Assembly: GCF_014696065.1 (NCBI RefSeq) | Contig: NZ_JACJPL010000031.1 | Coordinates: 620,001-684,000, forward strand | Reading direction: 5' to 3' | Length of the DNA: 64,000 nt | Source of the DNA: Leptolyngbya sp. FACHB-261 | Lineage (GTDB): Bacteria; Cyanobacteriota; Cyanobacteriia; FACHB-261 | Part shown: positions 10,040-53,927 of the stretch, piece by piece | Layout of the letters: every line of letters begins with the position of its first letter | How positions within the stretch are numbered: the stretch's first letter is position 1 | Program-made: the position numbers and the translations under genes | Notes under the pieces: model-generated | Told to the model about the DNA's origin: nothing | Database searches by the model: none | What the model saw: only the letters and a program-made list of their open reading frames with translations

Positions 10040-10732
10040 ATGAACTCAATTGACATCTTCCTCAGCCACAGCAGTGCAGACGCAAAGGTGGCCAAGGCCT
10101 TGATCGACTTGCTCCGCGACGCCTTTCATATCGAACCGAGTAAAATCCGTTGTACTAGTGTAGAGGGTTACAAACTCAAAACGGGCGCGCATACAGAAAC
10201 CCAATTACGCCAGGAAATCCATGATGCTCGCGTCTTCATTGGCCTTCTCACTGAAGTTAGTTTGGAATCTGCATACGTGCTCTTCGAGTTAGGTGCACGC
10301 TGGGGCAGCATGCAGAGCTACGGAGTGTACAACAGTGGGATGATAGGGTTCAAAGGCAAGATTTTTCCCATCCTTGCTGCCGGTGCTACTGGCAGTATCG
10401 TGCGTGATCCTCTTAAAGCATATAACGCACTCAGCTGTGAAAAAGCGGGAGATTTGCACCAATTAATCAGTGAAATAGGTCAGGAGCTAGGCAAGCAACC
10501 GGGGAGCGCTGCAGCCTATCAGGATAAAATCGACGCCCTAATCAGCGCCTCCAGACGACTTAAGGCCAAACGCAAAAAAGAGGAAAATCAGAGGGCAACT
10601 AAAGGCGCAACCCTACCTAGTGATAGTGATAGCAAGAAACCTGTGACTCCACGTCCTAGCACAGCCGTTAACCGTAGTAGTAGTAAGTCAAGAACACGCA
10701 AGGCTAGACCCAGTTCTACTAAGAAGAAGTAG
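10040..10732 (+). CDS. TIR-domain protein with lysine-rich tail
   Basis: A 230-aa protein. Residues of about 1-150 form a bacterial TIR-like domain: DIFLSHSSADAKVAKAL at the N-terminus, and SAYVLFELGARWG near residue 82, whose Glu corresponds to the catalytic position of NADase TIRs. After about residue 165 the chain becomes low-complexity and strongly basic (Lys, Arg, Ser), ending in KKK; such a tail could bind nucleic acid or membranes. AAGGA precedes the ATG. A lone TIR beside a HEPN-like gene suggests a small antiphage module, though no separate sensor gene is visible. A 21-nt repeat array follows 296 bases downstream. Confidence 0.85.
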   Translation: MNSIDIFLSHSSADAKVAKALIDLLRDAFHIEPSKIRCTSVEGYKLKTGAHTETQLRQEIHDARVFIGLLTEVSLESAYVLFELGARWGSMQSYGVYNSGMIGFKGKIFPILAAGATGSIVRDPLKAYNALSCEKAGDLHQLISEIGQELGKQPGSAAAYQDKIDALISASRRLKAKRKKEENQRATKGATLPSDSDSKKPVTPRPSTAVNRSSSKSRTRKARPSSTKKK

Positions 10733-11028: not shown

Positions 11029-11406
11029 CAATCTATGTCTGACCCAAAGTGAAATAGGTCAGACCCAAAACGAAGTGGGTCCAACCGAGACCAAATCTCA
11101 TGCTGACCCAGAATGAACTATGCCGAGTGAGATGCAATCTATGTCTGACACAGAATGAACTATGTCCAAGTGAGATCAAATCTTGTCTGGCATAGATTCA
11201 TCTATGTCGAGTGAGATGCAATCTATGTTTGACACAGAATGAACTATGTCAAGTGAGATCGAATCTTGGTCTGACATAGATTCATCTATACCAGACATAA
11301 AACAATCTATGCCAGAGATAGATTCATCTATGCCGGACATAAAACAATCTATGCCAGAGATAGATTCATCTATGTCAGCTATAGAATGGCCTGACACAGT
11401 AGCGAG
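11029..11406. repeat. 21-nt tandem repeat array 1 (about 18 units)
   Basis: Read in steps of 21 bases from 11029, every unit aligns without indels to 11385 (17 units), plus a degenerate 18th. The right-hand units (from about 11281) are nearly identical and alternate in a 42-nt super-repeat; the left-hand units are diverged. The motif ATAGATTCATCTAT inside several units is itself an inverted repeat. On the minus strand the right part reads as seven-residue repeats such as SISGIDC and FMSGIDE. Confidence 0.9.
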
Positions 11407-11412
11407 ATTCAC
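11176..11412 (-). CDS. Possible 78-aa heptad-repeat peptide encoded by array 1
   Basis: The minus-strand frame is open through units 8-18 and reads as seven-residue repeats around a G/D-I-D core. It ends at a TGA created by a point change at the start of unit 8, and the older units further left contain further stops. There is no convincing ribosome-binding site. Coding is possible but unproven; an open frame is expected whenever a 21-nt unit lacks stops. Confidence 0.25.
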   Translation of the reverse strand: MNLATVSGHSIADIDESISGIDCFMSGIDESISGIDCFMSGIDESMSDQDSISLDIVHSVSNIDCISLDIDESMPDKI

Positions 11413-11629
11413 TGAGACTCTCTAAGAGCAGCGACGCGGCCTAAGTGAGAGTACGAGTTCGTCAGGCTTTGTCTGGGGCCTTCTTGATTGAACGCTTGGC
11501 AGTCTCTTCCAGAACTTGCACAGCCGAGACGCATCTGAATGCAAGTTCTGACTTGCAGATAAATTGGACTTGCCAAACGCAGAGCTTTGTTTTATCGTTT
11601 CGTTCAGTCCAGTTTCTAAGCGCCGCCGA

Positions 11630-11813
11630 GGGTTGTTATCGCCAACCCTGGGCGACTGACCTCCAGGTTGGTTTGTGCCAGCCCAAAGGCTACGACGGAG
11701 TTTAGCACTCCGTTGCGGTTAACCCCATGCAAAGCGGGTCAGGTGGGGACCTAAGAGAAGGAGCGAAGGGGCGATCTTCACCGATTGCCCCTCAAAACCT
11801 ATTGAGGATTTTT
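11630..11813 (+). ncRNA. Candidate structured leader RNA upstream of the 73-aa gene
   Basis: Consecutive hairpins can be drawn: GGGTTG/CAACCC (11630-11648), GGTTGG/CCAGCC (about 11667-11684), ACGGAG/CTCCGT (11695-11713), GGGGCGATC/GATTGCCCC (11768-11791) and CTCAA/TTGAG (11791-11806). The last is followed by TTTTT (11809-11813) just before the ATG at 11818. It would act as a terminator and also hide the GAGG ribosome-binding site. This could be a regulatory 5' leader or an independent small RNA. No known riboswitch class was recognised. Confidence 0.4.
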
Positions 11814-11817
11814 CATC

Positions 11818-12039
11818 ATGACTCAATCGTCAGCCCCCACTTTTAGCGACAGCGATTTACACATTTTGAGCGTATTAATGCAGCGCTACAGCCTCTCCGT
11901 CATCGTCGCTGCCCTGAGTCGAATTTGTCTCTGGCAAGCAGAACAAGCAGCCACCCAACACCAAAATCGAGAAACCATTCGCGAATGGCGCGAAGACGCC
12001 AGCATCTTGAACAAAACCGTCGTTCAGCTCAACCATTAG
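11818..12039 (+). CDS. 73-aa orphan protein, paralogue of the gene at 53706
   Basis: The family is not recognised. It is a 73-aa acidic helical protein whose core RYSLSVIVAALSRICL and tail EWREDASILNKTVVQLNH closely match the 73-aa protein at 53706 (RYTLSTVIAALSRICL and EWRKDASILTKALIQLKH). Equal length and conservation across two loci argue that both are real. It sits behind a folded leader whose last hairpin covers the ribosome-binding site, and just before a dispersed repeat. The hydrophobic stretch is too short and polar for a sure membrane helix. Confidence 0.75.
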   Translation: MTQSSAPTFSDSDLHILSVLMQRYSLSVIVAALSRICLWQAEQAATQHQNRETIREWREDASILNKTVVQLNH

Positions 12040-12064: not shown

Positions 12065-12151
12065 ACCCTCTCAACCTCCCCTTGCTAAGGGGAGGTGCCG
12101 CAGACGGTAGGGTTCTTTGCCAAGGTAAGGTGCTGCAGGCGGTGGGGTTTT
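12065..12151. repeat. Dispersed palindromic repeat, copy B
   Basis: CTCAACCTCCCCTT, AAGGGGAGGT and GCGGTGGGGTTTT occur in the same order as on the reverse strand of copy A (4606-4663). Copy B has an extra internal near-duplication (GCCGCAGACGGTAGGGTT followed by a second GCTGCAGGCGGTGGGGTT), so it is longer. It lies between the 73-aa gene and the 3' end of the UPF0182 gene. Confidence 0.65.
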
Positions 12152-24068: not shown

Positions 24069-26312
24069 TTAGGCGTTTGGCTCCTGTTGTATTGCATCGC
24101 GTAGGGATTTGAGATTTCTGCGATAGAGAACTGTACTGAGATGATCAACCCCTAATACCCGCTCAGCGATTTGCAATGCCTGCTTGTACAAAGGCTCTGC
24201 CTCACGGTAGTGACCTTGGGATTTGTAAAGCAATGCCAAATTGTTCAAGCTAATGGCCATATCTGGATGCTCATCGCCCAGCAGACGTTGTCTGAGTTTC
24301 AATGCCTGCACAAGCAAAGGCTCTGCTTCGCTGTAGCGGCATTGGAAGTAGTAGAGCAATGCCAGGTTGCTCAGGCTTTGCGCTACATCTGGATGCTCAT
24401 CGCCCAGCAGACGTTGTCTGAGTTTCAATGCCTCCTTATGCATGCCCTCCGCCTCGCTATAGCGATCTTGGGAAGAGTAGAGTGATGCCAGATTGTTCAG
24501 GCTACTGGCAACATCTGGATGCTCATTGCCCAGCAAGCGTTGTGCTAGTTCCAACGCCTGCTTGTACAAAGGCTCTGCCTCGCTATAGCGACCTTGGGAA
24601 TGGTAGAGCCCTGCCAAATTGTTCAGGTGACCAGCAACAATTGGATGCTCATTGCCCAGCAAGCGTTGTGCTAGTTCCAACGCCTGCTTGTACAAAGGCT
24701 CTGCCTCACTGTAGCAACCTTGAGATTCGTAGAGCCCTGCCAGATTGTTCAAGCTTGTGGCAGTATCTGGGTGCTCATTGCCTACCAAACGTTGGCTGAG
24801 TTCCAGTGCCTGCACAAGCAGAGGCTTTGCCTCACTGTAGCGACCTTGAAAGTAGTAGAGCGATGCCAGATTGTTCAGGCTAGTGGCAACAGCTAGATGC
24901 TCATCCCCTAGCAAGCGTTGGGTAAGTTCCAAGGCCTGCTTGTACAAAGCCTCTGCCTCACTGTAGCGACCTTGAGAATAGTAGAGCAATGCCAGATTGT
25001 TCAGGCTAGTGGCAACAGCTAGATGCTCATTACCAAAGCGGGTCTTGACAGCCGATAAACATTGCTCGTACCAGGGTTCTGCCAAGGTATAAAGTCCTTG
25101 GCCTTCGTAAAATTTGGCTGAAGCGGCAAAGGGCAAATACAGATCCTCATCGTTGAGAAATTGAGATAGCCCTTTGGCGGCCTCTGCAAGGTGAGGAACG
25201 GCATGAGATACCAATCGAAGCTGTTGACGAGTTGGCGAGTATGGAATTTGCTTGGCAATCACCACCATTGCTTGGCAAAAGGCTCGTTTTTGCTCGTCTG
25301 CCTGAGCTGATACTGCCATCTTCTCTTGCAGAAACTCGCGGATTAATTGATGCAGTTGATAGAACCCTTTGCCCTTTTCCTGGAGCAAATGCAGATTCAG
25401 CAGGCCATAGTCTCGGATTTCTTCTAGTTCCTCTAGGTCCATGTCTGGCCAGCACTGCTCTACTAGCGACCAGGAAATTGGAGCCAGAGCAAACAGGCTT
25501 AGCAAACAACCCAACTGTTTAGCGGTCTCATCCAACGCCTGCCAGCTCAGCTCAAAGGCTTCTTGCACTCCAAGCGGCGCAGTCATGTCATCTTCTGACT
25601 TGTGCTTTTTTAGCGAGAGATGCTCTAACCGTTTGTTCTCCAACCGCGTCAGCATCTCAGCCAGTGTCAGCTCAGTTTTCCGCTTCAGGTATCGCCCTAC
25701 CAGCTCCAAGCCCAGAGGCAAATAGCCCAACTGTTTGCAGAGATCTCTAGCAAGTTGGATCTCTTGTTGCAGTCGTTCCTCGCCGATCAGCGATTCCAGC
25801 AACTTCAGAGCCGCCTCCGGTTGCAATACATCCAGAGAAAGCTGTCCGATGGATGCCCCCAGATGTAACCGGGTCGTGAGCAGGATCTTAAAGCGGGAAG
25901 CTTCTGTGGGCAGGTAAGGCTTGACCTTCGCATAGTCCGTCACATCATCCAATACCAGCAGCACCTCACCCTCCGGCCAATGCTGCCAGCAGAAGCGCAC
26001 CTGAGTCTCAACATCCAGTTCCTCTGCCGGCTTTAGGTCGAGCATAGCTTTAGCAAACCGCACAATCTGAATGCCAATATCTCCCCCACTTCGAGCCGAG
26101 ACCCAACAAATCCCACCGGAGTAGCTTTGCTTCTGGGCTAGGGCGTATCGAATCGCCAACTCCGTCTTGCCCACACCGCCCATGCCTGCCACCGCTGCAA
26201 TTGCAACCCGGCGTTCCTCTTGCAAGAGCTGATGCAGACGATCTAACGCCTCCTCCCGCCCCACAAACTCACCCGCTCCACTCAGAGGAATGTTGTTTGG
26301 GACATTTGCCAA
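24069..26312 (-). CDS. STAND ATPase: NB-ARC domain with TPR repeats
   Basis: A 747-aa NLR-like protein. FVGREEALDRLHQLL is the entry motif; AGMGGVGKTELA is the P-loop (about residues 41-52), LLVLDDV is Walker B, and LGYLPLGLEL is the GxP motif, followed by a winged-helix region. Residues of about 395-735 hold eight kinesin-light-chain-type TPRs of 42 residues (LNNLALLYYSQGRYSEAE-like), highly alike at DNA level. The start given is TTG with AGGAT before it. The frame stays open upstream into the TIR gene in -1 relation, so it may also be reached by frameshifting from TIR. It probably senses a phage or stress ligand through the TPRs and activates TIR. Confidence 0.9.
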   Translation of the reverse strand: MANVPNNIPLSGAGEFVGREEALDRLHQLLQEERRVAIAAVAGMGGVGKTELAIRYALAQKQSYSGGICWVSARSGGDIGIQIVRFAKAMLDLKPAEELDVETQVRFCWQHWPEGEVLLVLDDVTDYAKVKPYLPTEASRFKILLTTRLHLGASIGQLSLDVLQPEAALKLLESLIGEERLQQEIQLARDLCKQLGYLPLGLELVGRYLKRKTELTLAEMLTRLENKRLEHLSLKKHKSEDDMTAPLGVQEAFELSWQALDETAKQLGCLLSLFALAPISWSLVEQCWPDMDLEELEEIRDYGLLNLHLLQEKGKGFYQLHQLIREFLQEKMAVSAQADEQKRAFCQAMVVIAKQIPYSPTRQQLRLVSHAVPHLAEAAKGLSQFLNDEDLYLPFAASAKFYEGQGLYTLAEPWYEQCLSAVKTRFGNEHLAVATSLNNLALLYYSQGRYSEAEALYKQALELTQRLLGDEHLAVATSLNNLASLYYFQGRYSEAKPLLVQALELSQRLVGNEHPDTATSLNNLAGLYESQGCYSEAEPLYKQALELAQRLLGNEHPIVAGHLNNLAGLYHSQGRYSEAEPLYKQALELAQRLLGNEHPDVASSLNNLASLYSSQDRYSEAEGMHKEALKLRQRLLGDEHPDVAQSLSNLALLYYFQCRYSEAEPLLVQALKLRQRLLGDEHPDMAISLNNLALLYKSQGHYREAEPLYKQALQIAERVLGVDHLSTVLYRRNLKSLRDAIQQEPNA
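24160..25050. repeat. 126-bp DNA repeats coding for the TPRs
   Basis: Seven to eight units of 126 bases encode the 42-residue TPRs. Segments such as TGCTCATTGCCCAGCAAGCG and TACAAAGGCTCTGCCTC recur almost unchanged, so the array is prone to recombination and copy-number change. Confidence 0.75.
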
Positions 26313-26356
26313 GTTATCCTGCCCCTCCGACGATTGGCCGTCAGCGGTCGAAGGGG

Positions 26357-26369
26357 CTACTGAGGGTTT
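26357..26369 (-). promoter_or_regulatory. Candidate -1 frameshift site at the end of the TIR gene
   Basis: The TIR codons GCA AAC CCT CAG TAG contain A_AAC_CCT, which fits the X_XXY_YYZ heptamer (26369-26363). Slipping one base back reads AAA CCC and enters the frame that continues without stops into the NB-ARC domain. No downstream pseudoknot was modelled. Confidence 0.4.
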
Positions 26370-27064
26370 GCTGCTGCTTCGATCTCCTCGCAGATTTTGA
26401 CTAGTTCTCTGTTCAAGTCTGGGGGACTGAGGCTGTCGAGAGGTTTAGACGGGTCATTCACTGCCTGGTAGCTATTGAGAGCCGTCTTCTTATACATAGA
26501 AGCGCTCACCGCCACCCACAAAATTGTGAGTCCCTCCTCCTCAGCCGCCTTCAACAGCGCTGGAAACTCCCGTTCGGCAATAAAGTCTGAATACAGGAAA
26601 TTAGAGCTAACCAGAAGCACAGCTACCTTTGCGCGAGCCAATGCCTGTTCAATTTCTACCTCCCACTTCGCCCCTTTTTTGATGCGAGTGTCATCCCACG
26701 GATCAATAGTCCCGTTCCGCACCATCGGCTTCAGCATCGTCTGAAGCTTCTTGAGCCATTCCGCATCCTCATGGCTGTAGCTCACAAAAACCTGGTCACG
26801 TACAGGCTCCGGCACCGGCTTCTTCCTTTCTAGGCATTCTTTTTCTGGTTGCACTGTTGACTGAGAGGGTATTGCCACCGGAGGCGTAGCTGTTGACGCT
26901 CGCAACCGTTGAATCTGTCTATTAGATTCGTCAATCTGTTCTTGAAGCTCAAATCGCTGACTCGCATTCGATGTCCTGGCTAGCTCCTGCTCCAAAAAAG
27001 CCAGCTTGCGCTGCCAAGTCTGAAGCGCACCGTTCGCCGAGTGATCAGCCCCATCTGAAGCCAT
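26357..27064 (-). CDS. TIR-domain protein with N-terminal coiled coil, partner of NB-ARC/TPR
   Basis: A 235-aa protein. Residues of about 15-60 form a coiled coil ([31 protein letters not shown]). The TIR domain (about residues 88-230) has [60 protein letters not shown], and [10 protein letters not shown] with the catalytic-type Glu. It ends 44 bases before the TTG of the NB-ARC gene on the same strand. Together they reconstruct the TIR-NB-ARC-TPR layout, here split by a -1 frame change. The A AAC CCT heptamer precedes its stop codon. Confidence 0.88.
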
Positions 27065-27260: not shown

Positions 27261-27470
27261 ATCTAGTTTCAGCAGCCCCAAACTGAGCTTCATCGCGCTT
27301 GAGCCTAGTTTCACCATGCGCAAATCTAGTTTCATCGTGCTTGAGCCTAGTTTCACCCCGCTAAAACTTAGTTTCACCACGCGCAATTCTAGTTCAATCG
27401 CACTGAAATCTAGTTCAATCCAGATTTAGTTTAGTTTTACCGTGCTTACTTTTAGTTCAAGCGTAATTTT
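27261..27470. repeat. 21-nt tandem repeat array 2 (10 units)
   Basis: Ten successive 21-base units align from 27261 without indels. Most begin with TCTAGTTTCA or CCTAGTTTCA, and the second half of each unit varies. On the minus strand part of the array reads as heptads such as SSTMKLD and LRMVKLG, open for about 60 codons but lacking a good start. The sequence differs from arrays 1 and 3; only the period is shared. Confidence 0.9.
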
Positions 27471-27631: not shown

Positions 27632-27823
27632 TTAATTTACATTTATAAATTCGAGTCCCAAACACTCATTAAAGAGGTTCAAAGGCTCATTCACGAGCAT
27701 TAGAGCCTCATTCACGAGTCTCAAACACTCATTCACAAGACCCAGAGCCTCTGCTTTACCCACCCTTAACTCCCAGCTAAACCTAAATGTATTATTTCTT
27801 ACCTTCTTAAAGAGACTTTGCAA
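27632..27823 (-). CDS. Possible 63-aa heptad-repeat peptide encoded by array 3
   Basis: The frame begins with TTG and reads into five heptads (EALGLVN, ECLRLVN, EALMLVN, EPLNLFN, ECLGLEF). The Leu/Val spacing would form an amphipathic helix or coiled coil. There is no recognisable ribosome-binding site, so expression is doubtful. Confidence 0.25.
   Translation of the reverse strand: MQSLFKKVRNNTFRFSWELRVGKAEALGLVNECLRLVNEALMLVNEPLNLFNECLGLEFINVN
27653..27757. repeat. 21-nt tandem repeat array 3 (5 units)
   Basis: Five units of 21 bases, most with CTCATTCAC at the end. It lies 180 bases right of array 2 and upstream of the glycine-zipper gene. On the minus strand it encodes NE(A/C)L-x-LV heptads. 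Confidence 0.85.
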
Positions 27824-53705: not shown

Positions 53706-53927
53706 ATGTCTCAGATTCCAGGTTCAACCTTCGACGAACGCGATTTCAATCTCCTGCTCACCCTGGTCGAACGCTACACTCTTTCCACTGTCATTGCTGC
53801 CCTCAGCCGCATTTGCCTGCGCTCAGCAGCCCGCAACGAAGTGCTGCATCAGGCTCAAGATTCCACTAGTGAATGGCGCAAGGACGCAAGCATTCTCACT
53901 AAAGCACTCATCCAGCTCAAACACTAG
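53706..53927 (+). CDS. 73-aa orphan protein, paralogue of the gene at 11818
   Basis: Of equal length to the paralogue at 11818, from the ATG at 53706 (upstream in-frame M at 53697 is possible). Shared core: RYTLSTVIAALSRICL and EWRKDASILTKALIQLKH. The pair probably forms a small family of unknown role. Unlike the 11818 copy, no terminator-like leader precedes it. A small hydrophobic gene region follows. Confidence 0.75.
   Translation: MSQIPGSTFDERDFNLLLTLVERYTLSTVIAALSRICLRSAARNEVLHQAQDSTSEWRKDASILTKALIQLKH

Follow-up and report, generated by a model that had tools for sequence, protein, structure and literature searches.

A non-coding 21-nt tandem array of Leptolyngbya sp. FACHB-261 and a class of arrays in which period and position persist while unit sequence turns over

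Architecture of array 1 and its neighbourhood

We analysed a 64,000-nt window (C31:620001-684000) of the 6.9-Mb genome of Leptolyngbya sp. FACHB-261; positions given without a contig name refer to this window, and arrays and their parts are given without strand. A 21-nt tandem array, array 1, occupies 11029-11406. To its left, a plus-strand gene at 10040-10732 encodes a TIR domain (PF13676, E 1.7e-7). To its right, the plus-strand dispersed element e (11542-12039) consists of a conserved leader of ~250 nt and a 73-aa open reading frame (ORF) at 11818-12039, which starts 412 nt downstream of the array. Element e is multicopy, with a further copy in the window at 53706-53924. A short hairpin-like sequence (CCTCCCCTTGCTAAGGGGAGG...) at 12066-12116 is REP- or MITE-like and has ~45 dispersed copies in the genome.

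Array 1, delimited by self-match lags and TRF, holds 17 units in 21-nt register over 11029-11385, followed by a degenerate 18th that runs to 11406. Self-identity reached 0.48 when the array was shifted by 21 nt and 0.61 when shifted by 42; lags of 7, 14, 18-20 and 22 gave 0.22-0.25. Lags 7 and 14 show nothing, and seven-nt STRR-type repeats were rejected on that ground. TRF called periods of 21, 42 and 84 across 11037-11385 with 2-3% indels. A preliminary description of this DNA had counted seventeen units free of any indel and a degenerate 18th. The register and the 18th unit stand, but a compensating +1/-1 indel separates two 84-nt super-units, 93% alike, at 11113-11280: between the copies at 11113-11196 and 11197-11280, the +1 lies near 11166 (GTCCAAG vs GTCAAG) and the -1 near 11185 (CTTGTC vs CTTGGTC).

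The same description saw a right half that is uniform in 42-nt super-units and a diverged left half broken by stops. Stops are indeed present in the heptad frames on the left. The most uniform end, 11281-11385, alternates in 42-nt super-units by both TRF and lag-42 identity. The latter, 0.36-0.62 over 11029-11113, rises to 0.95 at 11281 and is 0.88 at 11302. However, the middle 84-nt duplication, with a lag-84 identity of 0.88 at 11113, is almost as young as the right end; the age gradient within array 1 is therefore not simple. Self-alignment, which had been expected to confirm period and polarity, thus bears out the period and a gradient, but not a simple one. A CATAGATTCATCTATG-type palindrome at 11192-11207 is one of four, the rest lying near 11276, 11318 and 11360; the palindrome ATAGATTCATCTAT, supposed to recur in each unit, is confined to four of the 18 (near 11193, 11277, 11319 and 11361).

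A sister array homologous to array 1, at C31:425830-426279, is built of five 84-nt units, 98% identical. It ends 167 nt before a 156-aa gene (C31:426446-426916) of the uncharacterised M family, which was found in 63 of the 291 genomes searched from the taxonomic class and on a gammaproteobacterial plasmid. Two M-family copies in this genome (C31:426446 and C1:245989) stand ~170 nt after 21-nt arrays. Of the seven TIR genes on C31, six have an array no more than 1.3 kb away, whereas for all genes the share is 5.4% (p 1.6e-7); TIR genes elsewhere in the genome mostly have no adjoining array. Tight linkage of arrays to element e was rejected: a 21-nt array precedes four of its seven near-full copies, among 11 paralogs of its protein in all. 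This protein was absent from 290 other genomes of the taxonomic class, and the element had no match in Rfam.

A genome-wide class of 21-nt arrays

We scanned ~2.05 Mb of the genome, plus selected loci, for intergenic self-matches by lag. In the 2.05 Mb, 15, 18 and 15 loci matched at lags 21, 42 and 63, respectively, against 0, 1, 0 and 0 at lags 19, 20, 22 and 23. Other intergenic lags with several loci, such as 14, 11 and 13, belong to separate short-repeat classes. Pooled identity at lag 21k was 0.49-0.62 for k=1-10 and fell to 0.23-0.27 one base off. The register is kept over at least ten units, with the signal extending to 210 nt and none at plus or minus 1, and single-base register slips were rare among ~230 units examined. 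Unit sequences fall into unrelated families, several of which occur at two or more places. Arrays that recur in this way sit inside larger duplicated segments, and unit number varies between the copies.

The window holds two more such arrays, both called by TRF: a second, of the CTAGTTTCATC family, at 27264-27470, with a paralog at C31:390017 and an adjoining TIR gene, and a third, of the TCATTCACGAG family, at 27656-27751. Near them, at 24069-27064, an NB-ARC-TPR gene adjoins a TIR-domain gene.

Further loci illustrate the range of forms that the arrays take. At C31:929592-929801 the units flip orientation (GTTGACGTTACTCCCGGAC and its reverse complement) with the register intact. A dispersed 300-650-nt element at C31:191000-206000 and C13:147000-153000 carries alternating palindromic units of the GAGTACTC and GCGACCGC types, whose number varies from copy to copy. 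Two paralogous two-gene units, at C31:207658-208665 and 786477-787396, encode proteins beginning MHLTQVLQPQL... and M(S/T)xNLRLALWDHI...; at both, a 21-nt array lies between the genes, and the unit sequences of the two arrays are unrelated.

Array 1 had no match in 95 other genomes of the taxonomic class, none of them of the same genus or family, and none in plasmids. In four relatives, searched over 100 kb each, no such intergenic arrays were found, which implies that the class is not essential. An enrichment of arrays between divergent promoters, which had looked strong by eye, was rejected once weighted by intergenic length (8 observed vs 8.5 expected). A class-wide polarity, with the fresh end towards the gene, was at first positive and then traced to array trimming; restricted to interior units, the trend was absent (22 of 51 negative, p 0.30). 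The model of growth at the right and ageing at the left that had been proposed therefore draws on array 1 alone: the gradient there is real, but its class-wide counterpart was an edge artefact that vanished on correction.

Linkage to the Y gene family

Arrays of the class often precede small genes, most clearly those for an uncharacterised protein family of ~125 aa that we label Y. The best homologues of Y are all cyanobacterial. We sampled 80 Y loci (L238-L317) from other cyanobacteria, including Nostoc, Fischerella, Tolypothrix and Leptolyngbyaceae. A TRF array with a period of 21 or a multiple lay within 1 kb upstream of Y at 72 of 76 loci and downstream at 4 of 79. By lag scan, the best lag was exactly 21 upstream at 61 of 77 loci and at 0 of 79 downstream. 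Leptolyngbya sp. FACHB-261 itself has 12 Y copies, eight of which carry an upstream 21-nt array by TRF and about ten by lag scan. In Y-linked arrays the commonest 9-mers recur 266 times at a spacing of 21 and 53 times at 42, with other spacings almost absent.

The position of the array is kept, whereas the units are not. In pairs of Y proteins that are 92-96% identical, with 90-nt leaders 79-89% identical, array units may be at random identity (0.43-0.52). Of 73 distinct loci, 68 share a conserved leader motif, TGnGgaTTTTgCTGAACcaaaA, at ~66 nt from the Y start codon on its upstream side (10-90% range 65-67), and a short hairpin may come after it. How far the array lies from the Y leader differs widely between loci (10-90% range 33-270 nt), and none of 63 gaps between array and Y gene contained a terminator-like hairpin. 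Structure prediction (pLDDT 85) gives Y as a helical protein that carries a basic tail; a fold search of the PDB with this model gave no match, and neither Pfam nor NCBIfam gave one over cut-off.

Array 1 is untranslated and non-coding. Its heptad frames hold stops, and other arrays contain uncompensated +1/-1 indels. Among 63 gene-linked arrays from other genomes, open frames were at chance, with 39 in sense against 35.8 +/- 3.7, and 37 in antisense against 32.2 +/- 3.5, in column-permuted controls. In the paralogous arrays 390017 and 647263, the substitution-rich phase is the one whose frames are full of stops. The heptads follow from a unit that is 21 nt long and partly palindromic, and both strands look heptad-like because array 1 resembles its own reverse strand (71% identity over 242 nt, E 1e-17).

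Taken together, the arrays form a class in which the period of 21, equal to two turns of B-DNA, and the genomic neighbourhood are kept while the unit sequence turns over. Since units can be wholly different even between 95%-identical Y proteins and open frames are at chance, the target of selection appears to be period and position rather than a peptide or a sequence. The preliminary description had seen a hint of selection on a coding or a spacing property; the stops, the indels and the frame counts do not support the first, and the second is supported for the class, given the lag-21k signal and the replacement of units at constant period and position.

Array 1 departs from this layout, with no recognisable Y gene beside it. 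At its right flank, a weak plus-strand match to the Y-locus leader motif (11401-11422, score 1.4, with ~0.06 expected per 130-nt strand window) is suggestive only. Flanked as it is by the TIR gene and the 73-aa gene of multicopy element e, array 1 is probably a member of the class that was orphaned or displaced, and we infer its descent from a gene-linked copy.

Known repeats, possible functions and their weighing

Constant-size, variable-sequence tandem repeats of 20-21 nt were described in many bacteria, including Cyanobacteria, by Subirana and Messeguer (2021, PMC8161180), who point out the two turns of DNA and leave function open. Those repeats are likewise non-coding, with several unrelated families per genome and size kept but not sequence. 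Array 1, with 17 units of 21 nt against their minimum of four repeats of 20-21 nt, lies in a genome with several unrelated families of the same period, does not encode protein, and has a species-specific sequence, as judged from the 95 other genomes (none of the same genus or family) and the plasmids searched. By the features that could be tested, it is one of these repeats. The link to a gene family and the in-place turnover beside a conserved gene are seen here and not in the accessible text of PMC8161180. In a limited search we found neither in the literature, and we regard the linkage to Y and the in-place turnover of units as new.

Other repeat systems share single features with the arrays. 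REP and BIME sequences are also short, palindromic, intergenic and present in many copies, but REPs have one common sequence with GTAG or CGTC tags, whereas units here differ between unrelated families and are tandem and phased at 21; a single candidate RAYT (Y1_Tnp) transposase gene lies on a different contig. In plasmid centromere and iteron arrays, direct repeats likewise follow one another at about two helical turns close to a small gene, but with a single recognition sequence throughout. The arrays described here have free sequence, and we identified neither Rep nor Par genes. Type III toxin-antitoxin loci (ToxIN, CptIN, TenpIN) likewise place a tandem array upstream of a small gene. Their repeats, about 34-47 nt long, form pseudoknots in RNA, and a terminator precedes the toxin gene. 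Arrays of the class also have a small gene downstream; for array 1 this is at most the 73-aa ORF, 412 nt away. By contrast, the present units measure 21 nt, the 63 gaps showed no terminator, and Y gave no sign of a ToxN/AbiQ-like toxin in the Pfam, NCBIfam and PDB fold searches. PARCEL elements (PMC2996958) are tandem units with dyad symmetry that encode a 25-residue repeat; the arrays share tandem dyad-symmetric units, but have a seven-codon period in frames that are not open.

Self-complementarity is pronounced in this genome. Against dinucleotide shuffles, array 1 folds with z of -8.1 and -10.0 on the two strands, mainly as one long imperfect hairpin. Twenty-two arrays of this genome fold better than their column-permuted versions, as much on one strand as on the other (Stouffer about -11 for each), and unit dyad symmetry exceeds that of column-shuffled controls (Fisher p 1.7e-7). 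In gene-linked arrays of other genomes, mean fold z was only -0.3 and -0.6; hairpins are thus a feature of this genome's arrays and not of the class, and per-unit hairpins were rejected as a conserved property. Of the RNA hairpins once suggested for each unit, what stands is the strong self-complementarity of array 1, not a hairpin in every unit nor a trait common to gene-linked arrays elsewhere. The dyad symmetry and strand-equal folding in this genome fit a property at the DNA level.

We weighed readings in which the arrays act as DNA, as RNA, as peptide or not at all. Our preferred reading, held tentatively and with somewhat less than even confidence, is that array 1 belongs, probably as an orphan, to a genome-wide class of untranslated, 21-bp-phased arrays whose role would lie in the DNA itself, as a platform with a phase of two helical turns. 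A protein that tolerates almost any sequence, perhaps the linked Y or some other DNA binder able to oligomerise, would line up on one helix face once in every two turns; so placed, it might control or insulate the neighbouring gene or organise local DNA. Both the binding and its effect are conjectural. The missing PDB match for the predicted Y structure and, at array 1, the lack of a nearby Y gene and the weak leader-motif match count against a platform, as does the absence of intergenic arrays from the 100 kb searched in each of four relatives, and the variable 33-270-nt distance to the Y leader disfavours a simple helically phased activator. A more specific proposal is possible but doubtful: a two-part cyanobacterial locus, in which a sequence-free array at exactly two helical turns precedes a small, basic, helical Y that polymerises on it, with selection on spacing and position, continual rewriting of the sequence and array 1 as an orphaned platform.

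Less probable than the DNA platform, yet a serious contender, is that array 1 has no function, being a relic or a neutral minisatellite grown by replication slippage in 21- and 42-nt steps, and that the class reflects a mutational preference for two-turn units. The partial decay of array 1 and its want of a Y gene agree with this, as do the lineage-specific sequence and the differing unit numbers in duplicated segments. Placement almost exclusively upstream of Y (72/76 vs 4/79) and replacement of units with period and position retained are hard to obtain neutrally, however, and single-base slips are rare over ~230 units. We think it improbable that the arrays work as transcribed tandem-repeat RNA, whether bound by the downstream protein in the manner of type III toxin-antitoxin systems or serving as a regulatory sponge. 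The order of array and small gene, the folding of array 1 far beyond its shuffles and of the 22 arrays beyond their column-permuted versions, and covarying palindromes in some arrays (half-unit covariation being marginal overall, p 0.03) speak for it. Yet the fold excess is equal on both strands, so RNA is not favoured, and is nearly absent in Y-linked arrays elsewhere; terminators are missing from all 63 gaps, Y has no toxin-like fold or domain, and the arrays have no Rfam match. The asymmetry of G-T vs A-C mismatches that would indicate RNA is mixed (6 vs 7 in array 1). A role of the arrays as recombination substrates that mark islands of accessory or defence genes would explain the TIR neighbours on C31 and the position of arrays in dispersed duplications, but TIR genes elsewhere mostly have no adjoining array and the fixed period and upstream placement at Y are left unexplained; we give this little credence. 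Least credible is that the arrays encode heptad, coiled-coil peptides and keep a multiple of three on that account: the period does equal seven codons, the heptads carry I-D cores and an open frame of 151 aa is present in the sister array, but the stops, the uncompensated indels, the chance-level open frames and the stop-rich frames of 390017/647263 all oppose it.

Constant-size, free-sequence repeats have long been noted in bacteria, have been called enigmatic and have had no function assigned. Now that arrays of period 21 can be tied to one defined gene family, and to a constant place upstream of it, there is a concrete protein and a concrete site to test. Recognition of DNA by spacing alone, if a protein does achieve it, would be out of the ordinary.
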